Positions 2,530 to 63,496 of a DNA stretch of 64,000 bases are shown one piece after another. The stretch is taken from assembly GCF_030053115.1 (NCBI RefSeq), contig NZ_CP125619.1:2987501-3051500 (forward strand). The letters are read 5' to 3'. Each line of letters starts with the position of its first letter. Positions within the stretch are counted from its first letter, which is position 1. The notes below the pieces were generated by a model. That model worked only from the letters and a program-made list of their open reading frames with translations, was not told where the DNA came from and did no database searches. Position numbers and translations under genes: made by a program. The stretch is from Pseudomonas svalbardensis. Lineage in GTDB: Bacteria; Pseudomonadota; Gammaproteobacteria; Pseudomonadales; Pseudomonadaceae.

Positions 2530-3470
2530 CGGCCTTTCCCCGGTTTCTGCGGGTTCAGGTACTCGCGCAGTTGCTCGACCATCTCGCTCTGGGTGCTCAG
2601 GGGCATCAGCAAAACCCGCAGCTTCTGCGCCAGCAGCTCCCAGCGAGCGATACGCGCTTCGGCCTGGGCGCGATAGGTCTGGCGCAGCTCGAAATTCAGG
2701 GTGTCGAGTTCCAGTTGCGCACCGCGTTCGGCGAAACGTAAAAGTCCGGCGGCGGGCAAGGCGTGATCCAGTGGATCGGATACGGGCAGCAGCAATAGAT
2801 CGCAATGCCGCGACAACAAACTCAGCTGTTGTTCGGCGCCCTCGGTCAGGGTGCGTTCGTCGCAGATCACGATCACCAGGCTGCCGGGACGCAATACTTC
2901 CCGGGCGCGACGCAGGGCAATGTTGAAGGCGTCCCGGTCCGGCTCGCTTTCCGTGTGCAGCGACTGATTGACCCGCACCAGACGGTTGAGCAATTGCAGC
3001 AGGCTCTGTTTGCTGCGTCGTGGCTTGATTTCATAGTGCTCGTTGTTGCCAAACACCAGTCCGCCGACCCGATCGTTATGACCCAGTGCAGCCCAGCCGA
3101 TCAGGCTCGCGGCCTGGGCGGCGAGCACCGATTTGAACATCAGTCCCGAGCCGAAAAACAGCCGGCGACTTTGTTCGACCATGATGAAAATCGGCCGCTC
3201 GCGCTCTTCATGGAACAGCTTGGTATGGGGTTCCTGGGTGCGGGCGGTGACGCGCCAGTCGATGCTTCGCACGTCATCGCCGGCCTGATAGACCCGCACC
3301 TGATCGAAGTCCACCCCGCGTCCGCGCAGTTTGGAGTGGTGCAAGCCGATCAGCGGGCTGCGCTGGCTCGGTGTGGAAAACAATTGCACTTCACGCACGC
3401 GATGGCGCATCTCGATCAGCTCGGCGAGGCTGACACGGATGCCCGGCTCGGGCGGCAGGAGGGCGTTCAT
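2526..3470 (-). CDS. DUF58 domain protein of MoxR operon
   Basis: The protein has 314 residues from ATG 3470; a TTG at 3479 would instead overlap the moxR stop. The DUF58 signature is visible as GRGVDFDQVRVYQAGDDVR followed by IDWRVTART, and the central part resembles a degenerate VWA fold. There is no signal peptide or membrane span. It lies between moxR and the DUF4381 gene with a 5-bp gap upstream and a 4-bp overlap downstream. Proteins of this family are presumed partners of the MoxR ATPase; no enzymatic activity is established. Confidence 0.92.
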   Translation of the reverse strand: MNALLPPEPGIRVSLAELIEMRHRVREVQLFSTPSQRSPLIGLHHSKLRGRGVDFDQVRVYQAGDDVRSIDWRVTARTQEPHTKLFHEERERPIFIMVEQSRRLFFGSGLMFKSVLAAQAASLIGWAALGHNDRVGGLVFGNNEHYEIKPRRSKQSLLQLLNRLVRVNQSLHTESEPDRDAFNIALRRAREVLRPGSLVIVICDERTLTEGAEQQLSLLSRHCDLLLLPVSDPLDHALPAAGLLRFAERGAQLELDTLNFELRQTYRAQAEARIARWELLAQKLRVLLMPLSTQSEMVEQLREYLNPQKPGKGR

Positions 3471-3475
3471 CGGGG

Positions 3476-4435
3476 TCAAGCGACGGCTACGACGTCGAGA
3501 ATCCGCTGGACCACCCGGTCCTGGTCGATGCCCGCGGCTTCGGCTTCAAAGGAAAGAATGATGCGGTGACGCAGCACATCGAACAGCACCGCTTGAATGT
3601 CTTCCGGGCTGACGAAGTCGCGACCGGCCAGCCAGGCGTGGGCCCGGGCGCAACGGTCGAGGGCGATCGAGCCGCGTGGGCTGGCGCCATAGGCGATCCA
3701 CTCGGCCATCTCCGGGTCGAACTTGGCCGGGGTGCGTGTGGCCATGACCAGTTGCACCAGGTATTCCTCCACGGCGTCGGCCATGTACAAGCCGAGGATT
3801 TCCTTGCGCGCGGCAAAAATCGCCTGCTGGCTGACCCGGCGCTCGGGCTTGGTTTCGCCGTTCAGTGCTTCGCCACGGGCCTGTTGCAGGATCCGACGTT
3901 CGACGGCGGCGTCCGGGAAGCCGATTTTCACGTGCATCAGGAAGCGGTCGAGCTGGGCTTCGGGTAACGGGTAGGTGCCTTCCTGTTCGATCGGGTTTTG
4001 CGTGGCCATCACCAGGAACAGCGGCGACAGGTCGTACGTGCTGCGCCCGACGCTGACCTGGCGTTCGCCCATGGCTTCGAGCAGGGCGGATTGAACCTTG
4101 GCCGGGGCGCGGTTGATTTCGTCCGCCAGCACCAGGTTGTGGAAGATCGGGCCTTGCTGGAACACGAAACTGCCGGTTTCCGGGCGGTAGATTTCCGTGC
4201 CGGTAATGTCCGCGGGCAACAGGTCGGGGGTGAACTGGATGCGATGGAACTGTGCTTCGATGCCTTCGGCAAGTTCTTTGATGGCCTTGGTCTTGGCCAG
4301 GCCCGGAGCGCCCTCGACCAGCATGTGGCCGTCGGCGAGCAAAGCGATGAGCAAGCGCTCGATGAGTTTTTCCTGGCCGAGAATCTGCGTTGAAAGAAAG
4401 GTTCGCAGCGCTAGCAGCGCTTCACGATGTTCCAT
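3476..4435 (-). CDS. MoxR-family AAA+ ATPase
   Basis: The protein has 319 residues. Walker A is GAPGLAKT (42-49), Walker B LVLADE (101-106) and sensor 1 ATQNP (144-148), with the typical MoxR stretch EGTYPLPEAQLDRF after it. It is the first gene of a five-gene minus-strand operon (MoxR, DUF58, DUF4381, VWA, VWA). MoxR ATPases are chaperone-like and often work with VWA proteins in metal insertion or envelope maturation. The substrate in this organism cannot be told from sequence. The leader upstream contains a REP hairpin but no obvious operator. Confidence 0.95.
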   Translation of the reverse strand: MEHREALLALRTFLSTQILGQEKLIERLLIALLADGHMLVEGAPGLAKTKAIKELAEGIEAQFHRIQFTPDLLPADITGTEIYRPETGSFVFQQGPIFHNLVLADEINRAPAKVQSALLEAMGERQVSVGRSTYDLSPLFLVMATQNPIEQEGTYPLPEAQLDRFLMHVKIGFPDAAVERRILQQARGEALNGETKPERRVSQQAIFAARKEILGLYMADAVEEYLVQLVMATRTPAKFDPEMAEWIAYGASPRGSIALDRCARAHAWLAGRDFVSPEDIQAVLFDVLRHRIILSFEAEAAGIDQDRVVQRILDVVAVA

Positions 4436-4603
4436 CGATGACTGTTCCTGGAAAGGGTGACCGAAGACGTTCGAATAACGCCAGGGCTGGGGGCGTTACT
4501 TTAATCTATCGCGGGGGGCGGCGACTAACGGCATTTTGTGCAAAGTGTGGGAAATGGTTGGGGGGTTGCAGGGCGCGTAGGGGGATGGTGTTCTTTCGGG
4601 CCT

Positions 4604-4688
4604 CTTCGCGAGCAAGCCCGCTCCCACATTTGATCGCGTTCAGCCAGGAGAAATGCGATCGAATGTGGGAGCGGGCTTGCTCGCGAAG
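4604..4688. repeat. REP hairpin (REPIN-type), copy 1
   Basis: Two 27-bp arms that are exact inverted copies (4604-4630 and 4662-4688) with the core GTGGGAGCGGGCTTGCTCGC; the spacer adds a GATCGC/GCGATC stem. It lies in the 275-bp gap between the moxR start and the 3' end of the small gene at 4711. Five further copies with the same core occur in this window. Confidence 0.9.
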
Positions 4689-4710
4689 GCGTCCGCTCAG
4701 GCGCTGAGAT

Positions 4711-5064
4711 TCAAAGCTGGCTGATGTAGGTGCCAGTGCCCTTGAGGATGTTCTGCAACGTTTCTTCCACTTCGGCCAAATCCGCCGCATCAGTGCTGTG
4801 AATGATTTCCAGCGAATCATCACCGTTCAGCGCATCGGCGTCAGCGGCAGCGATTTCGATCAACAGTCGGGTAGGGCTGAGGGTGACTTTCACGCCGTCC
4901 AGGGTTGAAGGCTCGTCGCCGAGGCTGATGTCCAGCGCGTCCTCGTCGGGGTAGCGGGTCATCAGGAACATATCGCCCTGATCGCTGTGGCAGCAGAGCA
5001 TGGCCATGTTGTCTTCTTCGTCATCGCACGGGTTGACGATCAAGAGGGCGGTGGTCATTTGCAT
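4711..5064 (-). CDS. small acidic protein of unknown function
   Basis: The protein has 117 residues from ATG 5064, preceded by AGGAA at suitable spacing. It is strongly acidic, with the cluster CDDEEDN near the N-terminus and many Asp and Glu throughout. There is no signal peptide or membrane span. It contains two adjacent cysteines (MLCCHSDQGD). I recall similar small proteins in Pseudomonas genomes but no assigned function. It is divergent from gdhB, with about 500 bp between the two starts. Confidence 0.75.
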   Translation of the reverse strand: MQMTTALLIVNPCDDEEDNMAMLCCHSDQGDMFLMTRYPDEDALDISLGDEPSTLDGVKVTLSPTRLLIEIAAADADALNGDDSLEIIHSTDAADLAEVEETLQNILKGTGTYISQL

Positions 5065-5566
5065 GGGGAATTCCTGGCTCGACGAGCATTGTGAAGACGA
5101 ACAAAGGACGATTCTGCCAGCAGACGGGAATTTCTGCTCGCCTGGTTGTCAGAGGATGTGTCGTGAACATCTGGGGTGTTGCTGGTCATTTCTGGTACGG
5201 ATGTGCCGCAAAAACGGGCTTAAACCCCCGTTTTGTCGTGCGGCTGCTAGTGTTGTTCGATGCACAAGGCGCAAGCTGCGTACCGATGACCGAATATGTC
5301 GCAGCGCTGCAAGCACGGGGCTTGCCGCACTGGTTAAGCTGCGCAACGGATGAGCACCTGTAAAGGCATTGTGCTGTACCTTGCCCAGTCGTTTTTGCAG
5401 ATGCCCATTCATGGAAGGTGAATGTGACCTGAGTGTCTCGTCCAGCTTCACCCACCTGTCATCCTGTTTCCTCTGCCCGAGAATCAGGAACAGGGTGACG
5501 GATTGCCCCGAAAGGGGTTTGCACGCGACGCTTCCATCAATAACAAGCCCAAGCGGAGTACCACAG
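5065..5566. other. 502-bp region upstream of gdhB without a convincing gene
   Basis: This is the divergent leader between the small acidic gene and gdhB. Short open frames cross it, but they lack ribosome sites and recognisable protein character. The only clear signal is the gdhB ribosome site GCGGAG at 5553-5558. No strong promoter or operator could be assigned by eye. Confidence 0.5.
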
Positions 5567-8500
5567 ATGGCGTTCTTCACCGCAGCCAGCAAAGCCGACT
5601 TCCAGCACCAACTGCAAGCGGCACTGGCCCAGCACATCAGTGAACAGGCACTGCCACAAGTGGCGCTGTTCGCGGAACAATTTTTCGGCATCATTTCCCT
5701 GGACGAGCTGACCCAGCGTCGGTTGTCCGACCTCGCCGGCTGCACCCTTTCTGCGTGGCGCCTGCTTGAGCGCTTCGATCACGCGCAACCGCAAGTGCGC
5801 GTCTACAACCCCGATTACGAACGCCACGGCTGGCAGTCGACCCACACCGCGGTCGAAGTGCTGCACCACGACCTGCCATTTCTGGTGGACTCGGTACGCA
5901 CCGAGCTGAACCGTCGCGGTTACAGCATCCACACCCTGCAAACCACTGTGCTGAGCGTGCGTCGCGGCAGCAAGGGCGAGCTGCTGGAAATCCTGCCGAA
6001 AGGCACCCAGGGCGACGACGTGCTGCAAGAGTCGTTGATGTACCTGGAAATCGACCGTTGCGCCAACTCGGCCGAACTGAATGTCCTGAGCAAGGAATTG
6101 GAACAGGTTCTCGGTGAAGTCCGCGTCGCGGTCGCCGATTTCGAACCGATGAAAACCAAGGTCCAGGAAATCCTCACCGGCCTGGACAACAGCCAGTTCG
6201 CTGTCGATCCTGAAGAAAAAGCTGAAATCAAAAGCTTCCTGGAATGGCTGGTGGGCAACCACTTCACCTTCCTGGGCTATGAAGAATTCGTGGTTCGCGA
6301 TGAAGCCGACGGCGGCCACATCGTCTACGACCAGGATTCCTTCCTCGGCCTGACCAAATTGCTGCGCACCGGCCTGACCTACGATGACCTGCGCATCGAA
6401 GACTACGCCGTGAACTACCTGCGCGAACCGACCCTGTTGTCGTTCGCCAAGGCTGCGCACCCAAGCCGTGTACACCGTCCGGCTTACCCGGATTACGTGT
6501 CGATCCGTGAAATCGACGCCGACGGCAACGTCATCAAGGAATGCCGTTTCATGGGCCTGTACACCTCGTCGGTGTATGGCGAGAGCGTGCGGGTCATTCC
6601 GTACATCCGTCGCAAGGTCGAAGAAATCGAACGCCGTTCCGGCTTCCAGGCCAAGGCTCACTTGGGCAAGGAACTGGCTCAGGTGGTTGAAGTGCTGCCG
6701 CGCGACGACCTGTTCCAGACCCCGGTCGACGAACTGTTTGCCACCGTGATGTCGATCGTGCAGATCCAGGAACGCAACAAGATTCGCGTGTTCCTGCGTA
6801 AAGACCCGTACGGCCGCTTCTGCTACTGCCTGGCCTACGTGCCGCGCGACATCTACTCCACCGAAGTGCGTCAGAAGATCCAGCAAGTGCTGATGGATCG
6901 CCTGAAAGCCTCGGACTGCGAGTTCTGGACCTTCTTCTCCGAATCCGTGCTGGCCCGTGTGCAGCTGATTCTGCGCGTCGATCCGAAGAACCGTCTGGAC
7001 ATCGACCCTGTACTGCTGGAAAAAGAAGTGGTGCAAGCCTGCCGCAGCTGGCAGGACGACTACGCCAGCCTGACGGTTGAAAGTTTCGGTGAGGCCAGCG
7101 GCACCAACGTGCTGGCCGACTTCCCGAAAGGCTTCCCGGCCGGTTACCGTGAGCGTTTCGCCGCCCACTCGGCGGTTGTCGACATGCAGCACCTGCTGAG
7201 CCTGAACGAAAAAAATCCACTGGTGATGAGCTTCTATCAGCCGCTGGCTCAGGTCTCCGGCCAGCGCATGCTGCACTGCAAGCTGTATCACGCCGACACG
7301 CCGCTGGCGCTGTCCGACGTGTTGCCAATCCTGGAAAACCTCGGCTTGCGCGTGCTGGGTGAATTCCCGTATCGCCTGCGTCACAACAGCGGCCGCGAGT
7401 TCTGGATTCACGATTTCGCGTTCACCGCCGCTGAAGGCCTGGAGCTCGACATCCAGCAGCTCAACGACACCTTGCAGGACGCTTTCGTCCACATCGTGCG
7501 CGGGGATGCCGAGAACGATGCGTTCAACCGTTTGGTACTGACCGCCGGTCTGCCATGGCGCGACGTGGCGCTGCTGCGTGCCTACGCCCGTTACATGAAG
7601 CAGATTCGCCTGGGCTTCGATCTGGGTTACATCGCCAGCACCCTGAACAACCACACTGACATCGCTCGTGAGTTGACCCGGTTGTTCAAGACCCGCTTCT
7701 ACCTGGCGCGCAAGCTCACCAGCGACGACCTGGAAGATAAGCAGCAACGCCTGGAACACGCGATTCTGGCCGCTCTGGACGACGTCCAAGTGCTGAACGA
7801 AGACCGTATCCTGCGTCGCTACCTGGACCTGATCAAGGCCACCCTGCGGACCAACTTCTACCAGACCGACGCGCACGGTCAGAACAAGTCCTACTTCAGC
7901 TTCAAGTTCAACCCGCACCAGATTCCAGAGCTGCCGAAGCCAGTACCGAAGTTCGAAATCTTCGTTTACTCGCCACGCGTCGAAGGCGTGCACCTGCGCT
8001 TCGGCAACGTTGCTCGCGGTGGTCTGCGCTGGTCCGACCGTGAAGAAGACTTCCGTACCGAAGTCCTGGGCCTGGTAAAAGCCCAGCAAGTGAAGAACTC
8101 AGTCATCGTGCCGGTGGGCGCCAAGGGCGGCTTCCTGCCGCGTCGCCTGCCACTGGGCGGCAGCCGTGACGAGATCGCGGCCGAGGGCATCGCCTGCTAC
8201 CGCATCTTCATCTCGGGCCTGTTGGACATCACCGACAACCTGAAAGACGGCGCGCTGGTACCGCCGGCCAACGTCGTGCGTCATGACGACGATGACCCGT
8301 ACCTGGTGGTGGCAGCGGACAAGGGCACTGCAACTTTCTCCGACATCGCCAACGGTATCGCCATCGACTACGGCTTCTGGCTCGGCGATGCGTTCGCATC
8401 GGGCGGCTCGGCCGGTTACGACCACAAGAAAATGGGCATCACCGCCAAGGGCGCGTGGGTTGGCGTTCAACGTCACTTCCGCGAACGCGGCATCAATGTT

Positions 8501-12607: not shown

Positions 12608-14041
12608 TCAGGCGACCTGCTGCAAAATGTCCCGCAGGCGGTCCAGGGCGATGTCGATGTCCAGGGTTTCAATGGCGCCAAAACCCAGGAAAAGCCCGGC
12701 CTGCGGCGCTTGCTGGTAGAAAAAACTACTGATGGGGTAGAGCCCGACTTCGACTTTTTTTGCCAATTCGATCACCAATGGAATATCGATAGACACTTTG
12801 CACATAACCACCATGTGGAACCCGGCGGTGGTCGGGACAGCCTCTAGCCACGGTGACAGATCGCCAGCCATGCGCTCGAGGATCCGCTCACGACGCCCGG
12901 CATAGATCGCATGGCAGCGCCGAATGTGCTTGAGCAGACAGCCTTCGGCGATGAACTTGGCCAGCGCCCATTGGGGCAGGGTGGAGGTGTGCAGATCGGT
13001 GAGTTGCTTGGCGCGAATGACCGCGTCGAGAATCGCTGGCGGCAGGATTGCATAACCCAGGCGCAGCTCCGGTAGCAGAGTTTTCGAAAAGGTCCCGACG
13101 TAGGCGACAATGCCGCGTTCGTCCATGTTTTGCAGCGAGTCGGTGGGCCGGCCTTCGTAGCGGAATTCGCTGTCGTAATCGTCCTCGATGATGATCGCGC
13201 CCAACTCATGAGCCCGCTCCAGCAGCGCCACCCGGCGCGCTTGGCTCATTGGCATGCCGAGCGGGAACTGGTGGGACGGCGTGACGTAGATCAGCCGGGT
13301 GCCAAGGGGGATTTTGTCCACCTGAATGCCTTCCGCATCCACCGGGACGCCGATCACCGTGGCGCCGTGGGTACCGAACAACAGGCGTGCGGGCGGATAG
13401 CCGGGGTCTTCCATGGCGACAATGCTGCCAGGACGCGTGAGCACCCGGGAGATCAAGTCCAGCGCCTGTTGCGCGCCGTTGCACACCACAACGTCTTCGT
13501 CCTGGCAATTGACCCCGCGGGAAAACGCGATGTGCCGGGCGATCGCATTACGCAGCGCCGGCAGGCCTTCGGGCATGCTGTAGAAGCCCTTGGACGCAGC
13601 GATTTGGCGCAAGGCGTGAGCGGTGCAGCGCCGCCAGTCATCCTGGGGGAACTGGCCCTTGCTGGTGGCGCCGCCGATGAAGTCGTAGCGCAACGAGCCT
13701 TCCAGCGTTGGATGGCGCAGGAACACCGGCAGGTTGCGCCAGGACTCGATGACCTCGGCACTGGCCAACTCCGAATGACTCTGTTTACGGGTGGTTTTCG
13801 CCGGTCGGGCGTTGACGTAGGTGCCTTTGCCGATGACCCCGGTGAGGAAGTTTTCGTAGGTCAGCTGCGTGTAGGTGTCGGAAATGGTCTTGCGGGAAAT
13901 GCCCAGTTGTTCAGCCAGCAAACGACTGGGCGGTAGCTGCGTTCCGGCTGCCAGACGACCGGATTCGATGGCGCTGCGCAGTTGGTTATACAACTGGCCT
14001 GCCAGGTCCTTGCGGCCGTTTATGACAACGTGAAGTTCCAT
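12608..14041 (-). CDS. MocR-family (GntR-aminotransferase) transcriptional regulator
   Basis: The protein has 477 residues. The N-terminal GntR winged helix (about 1-75) contains LAEQLGISRKTISDTYTQL. A linker is followed by a class I aminotransferase-like domain with the PLP-lysine motif TFSKTLLPE (Lys near residue 320), YVTPSHQFPLG and DDYDSEFRYEGRP. MocR proteins bind PLP or related amines and usually control a divergent neighbour. Here the divergent gene encodes an AhpD-like protein 207 bp away, and the ABM-domain gene lies downstream. The ligand is unknown; GABA, taurine and pyridoxal regulators share this architecture. Confidence 0.93.
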   Translation of the reverse strand: MELHVVINGRKDLAGQLYNQLRSAIESGRLAAGTQLPPSRLLAEQLGISRKTISDTYTQLTYENFLTGVIGKGTYVNARPAKTTRKQSHSELASAEVIESWRNLPVFLRHPTLEGSLRYDFIGGATSKGQFPQDDWRRCTAHALRQIAASKGFYSMPEGLPALRNAIARHIAFSRGVNCQDEDVVVCNGAQQALDLISRVLTRPGSIVAMEDPGYPPARLLFGTHGATVIGVPVDAEGIQVDKIPLGTRLIYVTPSHQFPLGMPMSQARRVALLERAHELGAIIIEDDYDSEFRYEGRPTDSLQNMDERGIVAYVGTFSKTLLPELRLGYAILPPAILDAVIRAKQLTDLHTSTLPQWALAKFIAEGCLLKHIRRCHAIYAGRRERILERMAGDLSPWLEAVPTTAGFHMVVMCKVSIDIPLVIELAKKVEVGLYPISSFFYQQAPQAGLFLGFGAIETLDIDIALDRLRDILQQVA

Positions 14042-57066: not shown

Positions 57067-57082
57067 GTGCATGGATATGCAC
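57067..57082. promoter_or_regulatory. palindrome upstream of the first arsR gene
   Basis: Perfect inverted repeat GTGCAT-GGAT-ATGCAC located 15 bp before ATG 57097. Related sequence (TATGCATGAGTGCGCATA) lies just before the monooxygenase start. Candidate ArsR operator; no direct evidence. Confidence 0.45.
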
Positions 57083-57096
57083 ATATAGTCATCCGC

Positions 57097-57447
57097 ATGA
57101 CAAACCGAACCTCTACACGTTCCCGTGCAATTGATGCCGCAATCGACTCTCTCGATGGAGCCTTCTTCAAAGCTCTATGCGAGCCGTCGCGGGTAGCTGT
57201 GCTCAAGCGAGTCATGCAACTGGGGCGAGCAGATATCGGTGAGATTGCCGAAGGGCTACCTCAAGAGCGTTCAGTGGTGTCCCGTCATCTGCAAGTGCTA
57301 TTAGAGGCCGGCATTGTCCGCGCTACCAAGGTCAGCAGGCAGATGTTCTACGAGGTGGATGGGCCGGCAGTGGTGACACGGCTCGAAGCCATTCTCCAAC
57401 AAATGAAGAGTCTGGCCCCGTTTTGCTGCCCTGGTATGCCAGAGTAG
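57097..57447 (+). CDS. arsR: ArsR-family repressor with C-terminal vicinal cysteines
   Basis: The protein has 116 residues from ATG 57097; a GTG at 57067 lies inside the palindrome and is less likely. The winged helix covers about 20-105 (FFKALCEPSRVAVLKRVM, ERSVVSRHLQVLLEAGIVRA). The usual CVC metalloid site of the recognition region is absent. Instead C110-C111 sit in the tail FCCPGMPE, resembling the C-terminal As(III) site of Acidithiobacillus ArsR; C28 could be the third ligand. The monooxygenase gene starts 39 bp downstream, so the two probably form an operon. Confidence 0.85.
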   Translation: MTNRTSTRSRAIDAAIDSLDGAFFKALCEPSRVAVLKRVMQLGRADIGEIAEGLPQERSVVSRHLQVLLEAGIVRATKVSRQMFYEVDGPAVVTRLEAILQQMKSLAPFCCPGMPE

Positions 57448-58609: not shown

Positions 58610-59827
58610 TTACCTGCCTTTTTGCGTAATTGGCAGACGCCAAGTGGCGATGAAGCACAGCAACAGAAACCCGCACATCACGCTAAGCAGTACCGATGCT
58701 CCGAAGCTGTCCAGAACGTAAGCGGCGGCGATAGGGCCGCAGGCTTGGGCGACAAGGACGGGCCTTGCGAGCAGTCCCATTCGTGCGCCATATCCTTGAG
58801 GCCCGAACAGCGCCAATGGAAGAGTACCGCGAGCGATGGTGAGGATGCCGTTACCGGCTCCGTAAAGTGCTATCGCCACGAAGGCCAGCCAAGGCAGGCC
58901 TGAGATCAGCAGTCCAAGCCCGATCAAACAAAGCAACACACCGGCTCGTGCGGACCAAGTTGGATGGAGGTTCCTGCCTAGGGAAAACTCAGCCACCCGT
59001 GCCAGGACTTGCGAAGGACCAATCACCATGCCGATGGCCAAGGCCACAGCAGTTGTGATCCCCAGCTGATTAAGGACATTGAGCAGGTGGACTGAGATGC
59101 CTGATACCACAAGCGCCAGAATCGTCAGCATGGCGCCAATCAACAAGAACAGCTGGTTGGTGGCCCTTGGGCGAAGCTCGGAGGCATTGGGTGATTCTAC
59201 TCTTGCGGGATGGGGCGGTTGCTTTGCGCTCCCAGGAATCAACAGCGCATGAATGGGCAATCCGATTAGCAGATGAGCTGCGGCGATGGTAAAGCAGGCG
59301 TTTCTCCAGCCGATCCAACTCTCCAGTCCCGCTATCACCGGCCAACCTATGGTGCTGGCGAAGCCACCCAACAAGGTCAGCCCAGTGATTGACGTTCGAG
59401 CCTCCTCCCCGAAAAGACGTCCTAGGGTTGAGAAGGCTGCGTCGTATAAACCCGCTGCCATGGCAACGCCGATCAGGGTCCAGGCGAGATAGTAAATGGC
59501 AGTGTTGTCCGCCAGTCCCATCAGTAGCATGCCGAGAGCCAGCAACAGTGAACTGGCGGCTAGGACAGAGCGTCCGCCATGACGATCAATCTGACGACCA
59601 ACTGCCGGCGAGGAAGCTCCGGCGACCAGCAATCCCCAGGACAGGCCGCCCACTACGCTGGTAATGGACCACCCGGTTTCTTTGGCTATTGGAGCCGCAA
59701 GCACTGCCGGCAGGTAATAGGTCGTACCCCAAGCAAGAATCTGGGTGAAACCCATCGCCCATACGAGCCTGGAGCGACTGATCGGAGGATGAATCTGCTC
59801 TGGAAGTGTCAAGACCGGCGCGCTCAT
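58610..59827 (-). CDS. MFS transporter of the arsenic island
   Basis: The protein has 405 residues and about twelve spans. MFS features: GRQIDRHGGRSVL between spans 2 and 3 (motif A), and a central polar loop (about 195-215). The C-terminal half ends LPITQKGR. It is divergent from marR across 121 bp that hold two copies of GTTG-N7-CAAC and mirror-image promoters. It is likely an exporter controlled by that MarR protein. The substrate may be an organoarsenical or its acetylated product; this is inference. Confidence 0.88.
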   Translation of the reverse strand: MSAPVLTLPEQIHPPISRSRLVWAMGFTQILAWGTTYYLPAVLAAPIAKETGWSITSVVGGLSWGLLVAGASSPAVGRQIDRHGGRSVLAASSLLLALGMLLMGLADNTAIYYLAWTLIGVAMAAGLYDAAFSTLGRLFGEEARTSITGLTLLGGFASTIGWPVIAGLESWIGWRNACFTIAAAHLLIGLPIHALLIPGSAKQPPHPARVESPNASELRPRATNQLFLLIGAMLTILALVVSGISVHLLNVLNQLGITTAVALAIGMVIGPSQVLARVAEFSLGRNLHPTWSARAGVLLCLIGLGLLISGLPWLAFVAIALYGAGNGILTIARGTLPLALFGPQGYGARMGLLARPVLVAQACGPIAAAYVLDSFGASVLLSVMCGFLLLCFIATWRLPITQKGR

Positions 59828-59832
59828 TTTTA

Positions 59833-59847
59833 GTTGTCAGTAACAAC
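59833..59847. promoter_or_regulatory. candidate MarR operator O1 (MFS side)
   Basis: GTTG-TCAGTAA-CAAC, 6 bp from the MFS start codon (59827). It sits next to a minus-strand promoter with -35 TTGACG (59877-59872) and a weak -10 CTAGCT (59854-59849), 17-bp spacing. Confidence 0.6.
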
Positions 59848-59848
59848 A

Positions 59849-59877
59849 AGCTAGCGCCTTCCTTTGGCTACCGTCAA
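59849..59877 (-). promoter_or_regulatory. candidate promoter of the MFS gene
   Basis: TTGACG, 17-bp spacer, CTAGCT on the minus strand. The -35 is good and the -10 weak. The predicted transcript start falls inside O1. Confidence 0.45.
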
Positions 59878-59890
59878 CCGAAGATCAGTG

Positions 59891-59919
59891 TTGACGATTC
59901 TGAGATTCCAGGATTACTG
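59891..59919 (+). promoter_or_regulatory. candidate promoter of marR
   Basis: TTGACG (59891-59896), 17-bp spacer, TTACTG (59914-59919). The predicted start falls inside O2. The arrangement mirrors the MFS promoter. Confidence 0.45.
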
Positions 59920-59933
59920 TTGCAGCTAACAAC
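59919..59933. promoter_or_regulatory. candidate MarR operator O2 (marR side)
   Basis: GTTG-CAGCTAA-CAAC, 15 bp before ATG 59949. On the opposite strand it reads TTAGTTGTTAG, sharing TTAGTTG with O1. Confidence 0.6.
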
Positions 59934-59948
59934 TAATTTGTGACGGTT

Positions 59949-60446
59949 ATGACGAAGCGTAAAAACGATCAGCTGACTCAGGATTCTGAGGACTTGTACA
60001 AAGCGTTGAACCAGCTGGTTCGCGTCCATCAGTTCCGTGATCGAGATCGGATCTGCTGTTACGACGTGTCTGTAACCCAGTGCTATGCCGTCGAAACGCT
60101 GGTCAAAAGGGGCGCATTGCGCCTTCAGGTCTTGGCGGAAGAAATGTTCTTGGACAAGAGTACGGCGAGTCGAGTGATCGATACCTTGGAACGCAAAGGG
60201 TATGTGTCCCGCGTTGAGGATGATGAAGATCGGCGTGCTGTGCGAATTCAGGCAACGGATGCTGGACGTGAGCTATACGAGAAAATCAGAGCTGATCTGA
60301 TTGCTGAGGAGCGAGCGATGATTGAGAACCTGTCAGTTGAAGCCAGGCAGGGAGCGCTGAGTTTGCTGAGGCAGATTACGCGGGCCACGGAGATTCGCTG
60401 CGGGCTCGTGAGTGAGTGCTGCCCAGCCGTGAAGAGCAAGGATTGA
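59949..60446 (+). CDS. MarR-family regulator with cysteine clusters
   Basis: The protein has 165 residues from ATG 59949; GTG 59940 is possible and neither has a clear ribosome site. The MarR winged helix is evident (LQVLAEEMFLDKSTASRVID, then TLERKGYVSRVEDDEDRRAV). Cysteines are placed at C36-C37 and C45 in RDRICCYDVSVTQC and at C151, C157 and C158 in the tail RCGLVSECC. This pattern suggests a soft-metal or metalloid sensor. It is divergent from the MFS gene and is followed after 63 bp by arsN1. All three genes have a GTTG-N7-CAAC palindrome at their start. Confidence 0.88.
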   Translation: MTKRKNDQLTQDSEDLYKALNQLVRVHQFRDRDRICCYDVSVTQCYAVETLVKRGALRLQVLAEEMFLDKSTASRVIDTLERKGYVSRVEDDEDRRAVRIQATDAGRELYEKIRADLIAEERAMIENLSVEARQGALSLLRQITRATEIRCGLVSECCPAVKSKD

Positions 60447-60477
60447 AAGGGCAAATTTTCCTTTTTTTGCCAATAAT

Positions 60478-60492
60478 GTTGTTACTACCAAC
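60478..60492. promoter_or_regulatory. candidate MarR operator O3 (arsN1 side)
   Basis: GTTG-TTACTAC-CAAC, 17 bp before ATG 60510 and directly after a -10-like AATAAT (60472-60477). A small hairpin GGCAAA/TTTGCC (60450-60471) precedes it. Confidence 0.55.
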
Positions 60493-60509: not shown

Positions 60510-61013
60510 ATGCGAGTTCGTTTAGCTGAACCCAAGGACACCGTTTCAATAGCAGCAATCTACAACCAGGGGATCGAGGAACGTAGCTCTACGTTTGAAA
60601 CTGCCCCTCGAAGCCCGGCAGAAATGCTTGATCGCATCAACTCAATGGATCGTTATCCAGTGTTGGTCATGGTCGATGCGGCGGAACAGGTTGTTGGCTG
60701 GGCTGGACTTAGTAGTTATCGCGCCCGCGCCTGTTACGACGGTATCGCGGATTTTTCCATTTACCTGGATCGCAGTGTTCGCGGCCAGGGGCTCGGCAAG
60801 CAGCTACTACAGTCACTGCTGGAAGAAGCCGAAGTTCGCGGATTCTGGAAAGTCCTTTCACGCATTTTCACCTTCAATCACGCCAGTCTCGCTTTGTGCG
60901 AAGCCTGCGGTTTCCGCCAGGTGGGGGTGTATGAAAAACACGCCTGCCTGGAAGGACGCTGGCTCGACTGCGCAATTGTCGAGCGCCTGTTTCCGAACAA
61001 TCAGCCAACCTGA
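60510..61013 (+). CDS. arsN1: ArsN1-like N-acetyltransferase
   Basis: The protein has 167 residues, a GNAT of the phosphinothricin/arsinothricin acetyltransferase group: IAAIYNQGIEERSSTFETAP, VVGWAGLSSYRARACYDGIA, acetyl-CoA loop DRSVRGQGLGKQLL and FRQVGVYEKHACLEGRWLDC. ArsN1 acetylates the amino group of arsinothricin, an organoarsenical antibiotic, and related enzymes act on phosphinothricin. The arsenic neighbours favour the first role, but the substrate is inferred. It is 11 bp upstream of the flavoprotein gene and probably co-transcribed with it. Confidence 0.87.
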   Translation: MRVRLAEPKDTVSIAAIYNQGIEERSSTFETAPRSPAEMLDRINSMDRYPVLVMVDAAEQVVGWAGLSSYRARACYDGIADFSIYLDRSVRGQGLGKQLLQSLLEEAEVRGFWKVLSRIFTFNHASLALCEACGFRQVGVYEKHACLEGRWLDCAIVERLFPNNQPT

Positions 61014-61024
61014 AGGAGTCGGTC

Positions 61025-62380
61025 ATGGATAACACTCACCTTCCCGTCGCCATCATTGGAGCAGGTCCAGTGGGCCTCGCCGCCGCAGCGCATCTGCTGG
61101 CCAGAGGTATCACTCCGCTGATTCTGGAAGCTGGGCCGAAAGCTGGGGCCAGCATTGAAGAATGGGCGCATGTGAAGATGTTCTCTCCATGGCAGTTCAA
61201 CGTGGACAAGGAGGCGGTCAAACTTTTGTTGGCTGATGGTTGGACTCCACCACCGGAGAACGAGTATCCAACGGGCCGTGAACTGCTGGAACGTTTTGTT
61301 CGACCTCTCGCGGACCTCGAACAGATCAAGCGTCACTTGCAGCTCAATACCCGTGTTCTGGCAGCCACTCGCGTCGGTCAGGATGTGATGAAGACCCAGG
61401 GCAGATCGGCAGCTCCTTTTTTGCTGCGTGTCGCAGGGCCAACGGGTGAACAGGATGTGCGGGCCAGTGCTGTCATTGATGCCTCGGGCACCTACCTGAC
61501 ACCAAACTGGATGGGCGCCCATGGCATCCCTGCATTGGGCGAGATCGAGCATGCAGCGCACATTGCGTACGGCATTCCGGAGGTGCTGGGTCGTGCGCGG
61601 AATCGCTATGCCAACAAAAGAGTGCTGGTGGTGGGTGGTGGTCACTCCGCGTTTAACGCCCTACAGGATCTGGTGCGTCTGATTCAGGAGGCACCGCAAA
61701 CCAAAGTGCTATGGGCGATCCGGGGTAATTCTCTTGAGCGCATTCTGGGTGGTGGTGCGAATGATCAATTGGAAGAGCGCGGAAAGCTCGGCCTGAAGAT
61801 TCGCCAATTGCTGAATGACGGCGTGATCGGGCTGTTCAAAAACGTCGCTATCGATCAGGTTGTAGGCAATGGCCAAGGGTTGGTTGTGAAGGCGGGAGAC
61901 CAGATACTTCCACCTGTGGACCAAATCATTGTGGCGACTGGATTCCGACCTGATATGAGCCTGCTCGCCGAGTTGCGTATCGCACTTGATCCCGCAACTC
62001 AAAGCGCAGTGTTGCTCGCTCCAATGATCGATCCCAACGAGCACAGCTGCGGTACGGTCAGACCTCATGGCGCGATAGAACTTGCGCATCCTGAGGAAGG
62101 TTTGTTCATTGTTGGGATGAAGAGCTATGGTCGGGCGCCTACGTTCTTGTTGATGACTGGGTATGAGCAAGTTCGCTCTGTCGTCGCGGCGCTGGCGGGT
62201 GATTGGGATGCGGCCAAAAGGGTTGAGCTGATCCTCCCGGAAACGGGCATTTGCAACTCGGATTTCGATGAAGTCGATGATCGCTTAAAGGCTTCGGCAA
62301 GTCAGACGTCTTGTTGTGGCACCGGAGAGACAATCCTTGAGGCCGCGCCTCGTACCTCGCCGGGTTGTTGCAAAGCCTAG
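61025..62380 (+). CDS. FAD/NAD(P)-binding oxidoreductase with cysteine-rich tail
   Basis: The protein has 451 residues with AAGGAG before ATG 61025. FAD motif GAGPVG (12-17), second dinucleotide motif GGGHSA (about 204), and ATGFRPD (about 306). The C-terminal 45 residues contain C410, C430-C431 and C448-C449, two vicinal pairs suited to bind As(III) or carry electrons. Flavoproteins of this type recur in bacterial arsenic operons, but no reaction is established. It follows arsN1 by 11 bp. A GC-rich hairpin follows its stop. Confidence 0.85.
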   Translation: MDNTHLPVAIIGAGPVGLAAAAHLLARGITPLILEAGPKAGASIEEWAHVKMFSPWQFNVDKEAVKLLLADGWTPPPENEYPTGRELLERFVRPLADLEQIKRHLQLNTRVLAATRVGQDVMKTQGRSAAPFLLRVAGPTGEQDVRASAVIDASGTYLTPNWMGAHGIPALGEIEHAAHIAYGIPEVLGRARNRYANKRVLVVGGGHSAFNALQDLVRLIQEAPQTKVLWAIRGNSLERILGGGANDQLEERGKLGLKIRQLLNDGVIGLFKNVAIDQVVGNGQGLVVKAGDQILPPVDQIIVATGFRPDMSLLAELRIALDPATQSAVLLAPMIDPNEHSCGTVRPHGAIELAHPEEGLFIVGMKSYGRAPTFLLMTGYEQVRSVVAALAGDWDAAKRVELILPETGICNSDFDEVDDRLKASASQTSCCGTGETILEAAPRTSPGCCKA

Positions 62381-62421: not shown

Positions 62422-62701
62422 AGGGGCGACCTTCTTATTTTCTTTTGCACGTCCAGGTAGTCCTTGAACCAAGGAGCGACCTATTTCTGCGTGAGTGACA
62501 GATTCATTACAGAAACCATATATACACCACCGCAGATATTTGAAGAGACACGGAAGGCTGGCTAGCGTCTTAATACACAGTTTTCATTGAAGGTGCTGGG
62601 AGGAGTCCAATCGTTTTGATGGATTAATGGGTCGTTTGCTCTTTACCTTGCATGCGGAAAAACATATATTCGTTAAACCGCATATGAGCTGAGGCTTCAC
62701 A
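62422..62701 (+). promoter_or_regulatory. promoter region of the arsC-arsR-arsC cluster
   Basis: A 280-bp AT-richer non-coding stretch. An inverted repeat ATGCGG (62652-62657) and CCGCAT (62678-62683) encloses ACATATATTCG, the type of AT-rich dyad bound by ArsR. It ends 18 bp before the first arsC start. No other signal was found. Confidence 0.5.
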
Positions 62702-63115
62702 ATGACCAGCAAAGCCCGTGTCCTGTTCGTCTGTACTGCCAACGCTGCGCGCTCCCAGTTGGCCCAAGCGTTGCTGAGGCATACCGATTCGGAGCATTTC
62801 GAGGCGTTTAGCGCCGGCACAACTCCGACTCAGGTAGATCCGCGCACCTTCGAGGCGCTATCACACATCGGTGTGAGCACCGAAGGATTACGTAGCAAGT
62901 CGATAGACGAGTTCCGTGATGAGCGTTTCGATTACGTCATCACCTTGTGTGATAAAGCCGCAGCGGAATGCCTGTCTTTACCTGGAGCCGGTGAAGCATT
63001 GGCCTGGAGTTTTGAGGACCCGGTCACCAGCACCAAACCCGATGCCTTCCGTCACACCCTTCACGAAATTCATGAGCGCATCAAGATGTTCGTCTTGGTC
63101 AAAAACAAACACTGA
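62702..63115 (+). CDS. arsC: low-molecular-weight phosphatase-type arsenate reductase
   Basis: The protein has 137 residues. P-loop C11-TANAA-R17-S and the redox pair C83/C90 in LCDKAAAEC match thioredoxin-coupled ArsC of the pI258 type. The family aspartate lies in EDPV. It reduces arsenate to arsenite. It is the first gene of arsC-arsR-arsC, 9 bp before arsR. The P-loop Ala at the position of Ser/Cys in most ArsC differs from the second copy. Confidence 0.9.
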   Translation: MTSKARVLFVCTANAARSQLAQALLRHTDSEHFEAFSAGTTPTQVDPRTFEALSHIGVSTEGLRSKSIDEFRDERFDYVITLCDKAAAECLSLPGAGEALAWSFEDPVTSTKPDAFRHTLHEIHERIKMFVLVKNKH

Positions 63116-63124
63116 GAAAACGAT

Positions 63125-63496
63125 ATGGCTGACCATCTGACACCGACCACTGTTTTCAAATGCCTGGCTGACGACACTCGGGTCCGCACGATGATGCTCA
63201 TCACCCGTGAAGGAGAGCTTTGTGTTTGCGAGTTGACCTGCGCGTTGAACGAGAGTCAGCCAAAAATCTCCAGGCACCTGGCGCAACTGCGTACTTGCGG
63301 CCTATTGTCGGACCGTCGGCAAGGCCAATGGGTGTATTACCGACTGCACCCGAATCTCCCTGATTGGGTTCATCAAGTGCTGACCACCGTGCTGGAAAGC
63401 AACAAGCACTGGTTGAGCCCTGATGCCAAACGCCTTGATGAAATGGGTGACCGTCCTGAACGGGCAGCCGTGTGCTGTGAAAGCAAAATCGCCTGA
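63125..63496 (+). CDS. arsR: ArsR-family repressor, CVC type
   Basis: The protein has 123 residues. The winged helix has the classical metalloid site ELCVCELT (C33 and C35, with C39 nearby) on the recognition-helix side, then NESQPKISRHLAQLRTCGLL. The tail carries a vicinal C117-C118. It senses As(III)/Sb(III) and should repress this cluster. It lies between two arsC genes, 9 bp after the first and 27 bp before the second. Its sensor site differs from the first ArsR at 57097. Confidence 0.93.
   Translation: MADHLTPTTVFKCLADDTRVRTMMLITREGELCVCELTCALNESQPKISRHLAQLRTCGLLSDRRQGQWVYYRLHPNLPDWVHQVLTTVLESNKHWLSPDAKRLDEMGDRPERAAVCCESKIA

Follow-up and report, generated by a model that had tools for sequence, protein, structure and literature searches.

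The control of arsenic resistance is usually attributed to ArsR repressors. The arsenic island of Pseudomonas svalbardensis analysed here also encodes a regulator of the MarR type, and short palindromes are found on both sides of its gene. The question raised by this locus is which protein acts at those palindromes, on which genes, and in response to what signal. The whole stretch of DNA that was analysed, 64 kb in length, is referred to below as the window.

Dyads and genes of the locus

A pattern scan of the window found exact GTTG-N7-CAAC dyads at four positions. Three of these are the sites reported in a preliminary description of this DNA: O1 (GTTGTCAGTAACAAC, 59833–59847), O2 (GTTGCAGCTAACAAC, 59919–59933) and O3 (GTTGTTACTACCAAC, 60478–60492). 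They were listed without strand, as candidate operators of the divergent MFS gene (O1, the exact dyad on the MFS side), of marR (O2) and of arsN1 together with the following flavoprotein gene (O3). All three are less than 20 bp from a start codon, as had been claimed: O1 is separated by 5 bp from the ATG of the MFS gene (59827, minus strand), O2 by 15 bp from the likely ATG of marR (59949), or by 6 bp if the upstream GTG (59940) is taken, and O3 by 17 bp from the ATG of arsN1 (60510). The fourth dyad, at 13478, is located inside a 477-aa ORF.

The divergent gene (58610–59827, minus strand) encodes an MFS transporter that scored 241.6 bits against the NCBIfam ArsK equivalog NF033733, below its cut-off of 400 bits, and is hence described only as ArsK-like. 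The marR gene (59949–60446, plus strand) encodes 165 aa from the ATG, or 168 aa from the GTG, with a MarR winged-helix domain (PF01047, 52.2 bits; Pfam cut-off 24.6). MarR models were the best in Pfam, and no ArsR/SmtB models were present among the profile matches of the protein. The next gene, arsN1 (60510–61013, plus strand), belongs to arsinothricin N-acetyltransferase family A (NF040503, 236.8 bits; cut-off 170), and is followed by a gene for an FAD/NAD(P)-dependent flavoprotein (61025–62380, plus strand; Pyr_redox_3), which reached 50.6 bits against the ArsO model, below the cut-off of 425. The C-terminal tail of the flavoprotein (62300–62380) is rich in cysteines, arranged as CC...CC, and resembles the C-terminus of MarR itself. 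Two ArsR/SmtB-type genes are found in the same island within 4 kb (57067–57447 and 63125–63496). An ATAT-rich repeat at 62650–62700, ahead of an arsC-like gene at 62702, resembles an ArsR-type operator, and suggests that the island may contain two separate arsenic switches. A PADLOC search returned nothing useful.

Shuffling of the 64 kb gave an expectation of 1.62 dyads, and at least four matches occurred in 6 of 100 shuffles, so that the number of dyads in the whole window is in itself unremarkable; the striking part is their clustering. At the genome-wide rate, the Poisson probability of three dyads within 660 bp is ≈4.4 × 10^−7, or ≈4 × 10^−5 when allowing for the 97 such stretches in the window, which bears out the earlier remark that the cluster at these gene starts was notable. 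The specificity of the motif across the genome held only in part. In the complete genome (6.36 Mb, one contig), the loose pattern GTTG-N7-CAAC was present at 134 places, compared to 143 for the reversed control. This is the chance level, and the eight fixed bases alone are thus uninformative. The tighter motif GTTGTYRNNNNCAAC gave 11 strand hits, compared to 15 for its reversed control, and was not enriched either. The dyad was therefore rejected as a genome-wide marker of the regulon. Four of the 11 strand hits come from the three sites, with O1 matched on both strands, and the other seven places are all within long ORFs (the ORF at L066 is putative as a gene). O1–O3 are set apart from these other matches by their position and, as promoter sites, are confined to the locus. 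The scan suggests no targets elsewhere in the genome, where sites with two atypical halves could escape detection.

Conservation of the dyads beside MarR relatives

Relatives of the MarR protein were found in 11 of 199 genomes of the genus, 16 of 298 of the family, 2 of 369 of the class and 11 of 299 of the order to which genome G565 belongs. (The genome draws overlap, and the genus, family and class counts include the window's own genome.) Further relatives came from 39 named loci and four plasmids, three of which were taken in; the fourth (Deinococcus, 29.6%) was left out. The named taxa with relatives are Pseudomonas, Stutzerimonas, Halopseudomonas, Achromobacter and two acidobacterial MAGs. 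After loci with identical flanks were removed, 60 of the resulting 80 MarR loci (the window's own, L001, included) remained, and exclusion of L050, which has a truncated MarR, gave 59 distinct loci with full-length MarR at 46–100% identity, window included. L050 (6001–6300) seems to have lost most of marR together with the arsN1 and flavoprotein genes, and O3 remains ahead of the arsC region. ArsN1 was matched at E ≤ 1e-40 in 10 of the 199 genus genomes, nine of them among the 11 with MarR, the two genes being on different contigs in G143. In the tenth, G022, the match is only a fragment with two stops, and the genus therefore provides no intact ArsN1 control that is free of MarR.

An exact dyad was present upstream of marR in all 59 distinct loci. 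O3 was exact in 37 and had at most one mismatch in 50 of the 52 distinct loci in which the gene after marR was recognised as arsN1, flavoprotein or arsN2; a one-mismatch O3 would be expected by chance in roughly 4% of loci, by our estimate. The two loci without O3 are L081 and L084, in which arsN1 closely follows marR. Among the 28 distinct loci in which a divergent MFS gene was matched, 26 have an exact O1; the exceptions are L003 and L004. In two of the 28 (L017 and L021), only a short remnant of the MFS gene is left, and O1 is kept in both; O1 also persists in L018, likewise with a short remnant, and in L029, where no MFS gene was found. The comparison gives good support to the proposal of the preliminary description that a single MarR regulon may cover the pump, marR itself and the arsN1-flavoprotein operon.

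The placement of the dyads was counted in an earlier set of 65 loci, of which 45 were distinct (399 kb). Promoter windows, amounting to ≈26.5 kb, contained 102 of the 104 exact dyads, and the remaining ≈373 kb contained two. Fourteen control patterns (spacings of 0–6 and 8–13, and the mirror pattern) gave only 0–5 matches each in the same promoter windows, compared to 102 for N7.

The most informative relatives have MarR proteins that are 46–54% identical to that of the window, and their flanks look unrelated to the window's by eye. They include 13 loci from the order of G565, which is in the same class (L068 and L087–L098), with the arrangement marR-arsN1-flavoprotein in 11 and marR-flavoprotein in two (L088 and L093). 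The exact dyad precedes marR in all 13, and O3 is exact in nine and one mismatch off in four. In L068, L095 and L098, a second, one-mismatch dyad is found ≈34 bp upstream of the marR dyad, which suggests that these loci may have paired operators. In a Terriglobales MAG (L048, MarR 48%), dyads precede both marR and an arsN2-arsM-arsC-acr3 cluster (2706–6302); the gene families were assigned by profile models, ArsC by Pfam only. Conservation at orthologous starts, which had been put forward as a check on the three sites, was thus strong, including where MarR is only 46–54% identical and the neighbourhood differs.

Promoter architecture

The preliminary description placed O1 and O2 in mirror-image promoters, each with TTGACG and a 17-bp spacing. 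The −35-like TTGACG elements were found in the sequence, at 59872–59877 (minus strand) for the MFS gene and at 59891–59896 (plus strand) for marR, but the spacing applies only loosely: a distance of exactly 17 bp leads to poor hexamers (TTACTG and CTAGCT). The best-scoring −10 of the window's marR promoter, ATTACT at 16 bp, is also poor, and ends just before O2. A scan of the promoters with the sigma-70 consensus returned no site at threshold. Of the 54 O2 rows compared, 46 have TTGAC as the −35. In 43, the last two bases of the best-scoring −10 are the GT of the operator itself; the window belongs to the other 11. On the O1 side, TTGAC was found in 28 of the 34 rows filed as O1 type, which include ArsQ-type sites and one misfiled row (L088). 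All of these promoter scores are the best of several, taken without a shuffled control. With the dyad located over the −10 of a TTGAC promoter at most marR starts, steric repression is likely.

O3 is different, in that no convincing −35 was found for it. Instead, a run of T (60462–60468, plus strand) ends exactly 9 bp upstream of O3. A run of at least six T at the same 9-bp gap was present in 39 of 50 loci with O3, in two phyla (Proteobacteria and the Terriglobales locus). Of the remaining 11, two have a shorter run at 9 bp, one has a run at 8 bp and another at 10 bp, four have a short run 13 bp away, and three have no run. (The T-tract was seen in L087, L089, L094, L096 and L048, among others.) A weak hairpin after marR (60445–60465, plus strand) is a possible terminator; in the window, its folding did not stand out from that of shuffled sequence (z 0.15). 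When the hairpins of four relatives were folded, three did better than shuffles (z −1.9 to −2.3) and the fourth did not (z 0.60). In some Pseudomonas relatives the hairpin precedes the T-tract, while in the order of G565 the T-tract often directly follows the stop codon, and for this reason we tentatively take the T-tract as a promoter element. It is possibly an unusual one, and O3 seems to belong to a promoter type different from that of O1 and O2.

The MarR protein and a proposed arsenical switch

The MarR protein has cysteines at positions 36, 37 and 45 in ATG numbering (39, 40 and 48 from the GTG), encoded at 60054–60059 and 60081–60083, and at positions 151, 157 and 158 near the C-terminus. 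Cys36, Cys37 and Cys45 are present in 57, 56 and 56, respectively, of 57 distinct locus sequences; one has Ser for Cys45 and one has Gly for Cys37. The CC-x7-C pattern was found in 233 of the 240 homologs listed, which are the best 120 matches among 4242 and the best 120 among 3261, and is missing in seven of the 120 closest. The predicted structure has a pLDDT of 86.1. In this model, Cys36 and Cys37 are located in a loop ahead of the second helix, with moderate confidence (≈72), Cys45 is near the start of that helix, and Cys157 and Cys158 are in a low-confidence tail. The Foldseek matches listed were of MarR type (among them Rv0880, FabT and MexR), with E-values down to 9e-7 and moderate TM-scores (≈0.4–0.6). 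Eleven solved relatives were matched, and none of the four that were aligned has cysteines at positions 36, 37 or 45. It is a natural guess that the cysteine set forms an arsenical-binding site.

MarR, MexR, MepR and OhrR are MarR-family autorepressors divergent from an efflux gene. The present protein is like them in its winged-helix MarR domain, in the short dyads at its promoters and in its apparent control of itself along with a divergent pump, but differs in having CC-x7-C before the DNA-binding helices, which the four aligned structures lack, and in its arsenic gene neighbourhood. In its likely job, as an arsenic-relieved repressor of resistance genes, it is like the ArsR/SmtB repressors, but it belongs to a different protein family and has two separate ArsR-type genes nearby.

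Some of the relatives are found beside genes for arsinothricin synthesis and export. In L085, a Pseudomonas amygdali plasmid (MarR 53%; 3248–6489), marR diverges from arsQ and arsL, beyond which arsM is found. Only one dyad, of the type GTTGCG-N3-CGCAAC, is located between marR and arsQ-arsL. The same form of dyad is present in L010 and L011, whose divergent ArsQ is 98 and 94% identical, respectively, and in L082, where ArsQ was not matched. The altered dyad centre hints that this branch of MarR (L010, L011, L082 and L085, 53–55% identity) may have a diverged operator. In L041 (Pseudomonas sp. SJZ074, MarR 71%; 3010–6477), marR is divergent from ArsQ (662.7 bits; cut-off 480) and ArsL (672 bits; cut-off 450), with two window-type dyads between them, the ArsQ-side dyad being ≈266 bp from the start of the ArsQ ORF rather than at the start. 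L041 was not counted as a divergent ArsQ locus because the match starts past the 400-bp limit, and L080, with flanks like those of L041, was dropped as a duplicate. ArsL was found in 1 of 298 genomes of the family, too few to count. With relatives beside arsQ-arsL as well as arsN1, a single type of MarR regulator accompanies both the making of arsinothricin and resistance to it.

In published work, ArsN1 acetylates arsinothricin, leading to resistance (PMC6465285), and arsQML of Burkholderia gladioli is arsenite-inducible, with ArsR suggested as the regulator there (PMC8552651), whereas it is a MarR gene that is adjacent here and that stands beside arsQ-arsL in Pseudomonas. The word MarR does not occur in either of these two papers. 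An arsV operon of Achromobacter is reported to be induced by antimonite (PMC11719878), and no tie to the window's MarR was found. In listings of the open-licence literature, we saw no paper on a MarR protein controlling arsN1 or arsQML; two of those listed, PMC8149597 and PMC11317156, contain both the words "arsn1" and "marr".

Taking these observations together, we put the probability at about 80% that the dyads are operators of the MarR protein encoded between them, and that they form a locally autorepressed regulon, probably relieved by a trivalent arsenical. MarR-family proteins act as dimers. A MarR dimer would occupy the −10/start region of the three promoters and block RNA polymerase, thereby holding down the divergent ArsK-like exporter, marR itself and the operon of arsN1 and the flavoprotein gene. 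The inducer would be a trivalent arsenical (arsenite, or else an organoarsenical, for instance reduced arsinothricin or methylarsenite) bound by Cys36, Cys37 and Cys45, with the C-terminal cysteines possibly sharing in the binding. The arsenical-bound MarR would then leave the DNA, and export, acetylation and probably oxidation would be switched on. Binding by MarR, the direction of control (repression) and the inducer are inferred, the inducer from gene content and cysteines.

The lack of a −35 at O3, together with the fixed 9-bp distance to the T-tract in 39 of 50 loci, would be consistent with MarR acting as an activator at that site. We consider this improbable, since the operator abuts or overlaps −10-like bases as it does at marR, which favours blocking. 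The presence of two ArsR-type genes within 4 kb would favour ownership of the dyads by one of the ArsR/SmtB regulators of the island (57067–57447 or 63125–63496), but MarR was the only criterion by which the 59 loci were gathered, and every one of them has the dyad in spite of differences in the other genes. Furthermore, the exact dyads of the window are the three sites and the one inside an ORF, so that neither ArsR gene has one upstream. This very improbable reading was rejected. Hardly any weight can be given to the dyads being RNA hairpins or inherited sequence without function, despite their inverted-repeat form and the flanking sequence that close relatives have in common: they are kept at 46–54% MarR identity where the flanks differ by eye, they overlap the −10 at most marR promoters, and other spacings gave no more than five matches.

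MarR proteins commonly use cysteine oxidation. The same MarR regulon could thus respond to oxidative or electrophile stress through a thiol switch like that of OhrR or MexR, with arsenic as an indirect trigger only, and the cysteines described above would serve such a sensor too. Some of the relatives are also named as "2-MHQ and catechol resistance" repressors, although this is an automatic label. Against this stands the neighbourhood, which consists of arsenic genes in distant taxa (arsN1, arsN2-arsM-arsC-acr3 and arsQ-arsL), and the fit of CC-x7-C and the tail cysteines to binding of a soft metalloid. We regard the thiol switch as unlikely, and prefer direct relief of MarR repression by a trivalent arsenical.

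What is new here is the breadth of the family, the cysteine signature, the link to biosynthesis genes and the T-tract, which in most loci ends exactly 9 bp ahead of O3. A MarR family that carries cysteines, has an operator of its own and is tied to arsinothricin resistance offers a directly testable answer to the regulation of arsN1, as well as a possible biosensor part and a motif usable for finding further organoarsenical genes. The chances appear evenly balanced that these proteins constitute a new MarR subfamily of arsenical sensors, defined by CC-x7-C and the GTTG-N7-CAAC operator, which is present in Proteobacteria and Acidobacteria and controls both arsQ-arsL, for the making and export of arsinothricin, and arsN1, for its destruction. 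If so, the producers of arsinothricin and its targets would read one signal with one switch.
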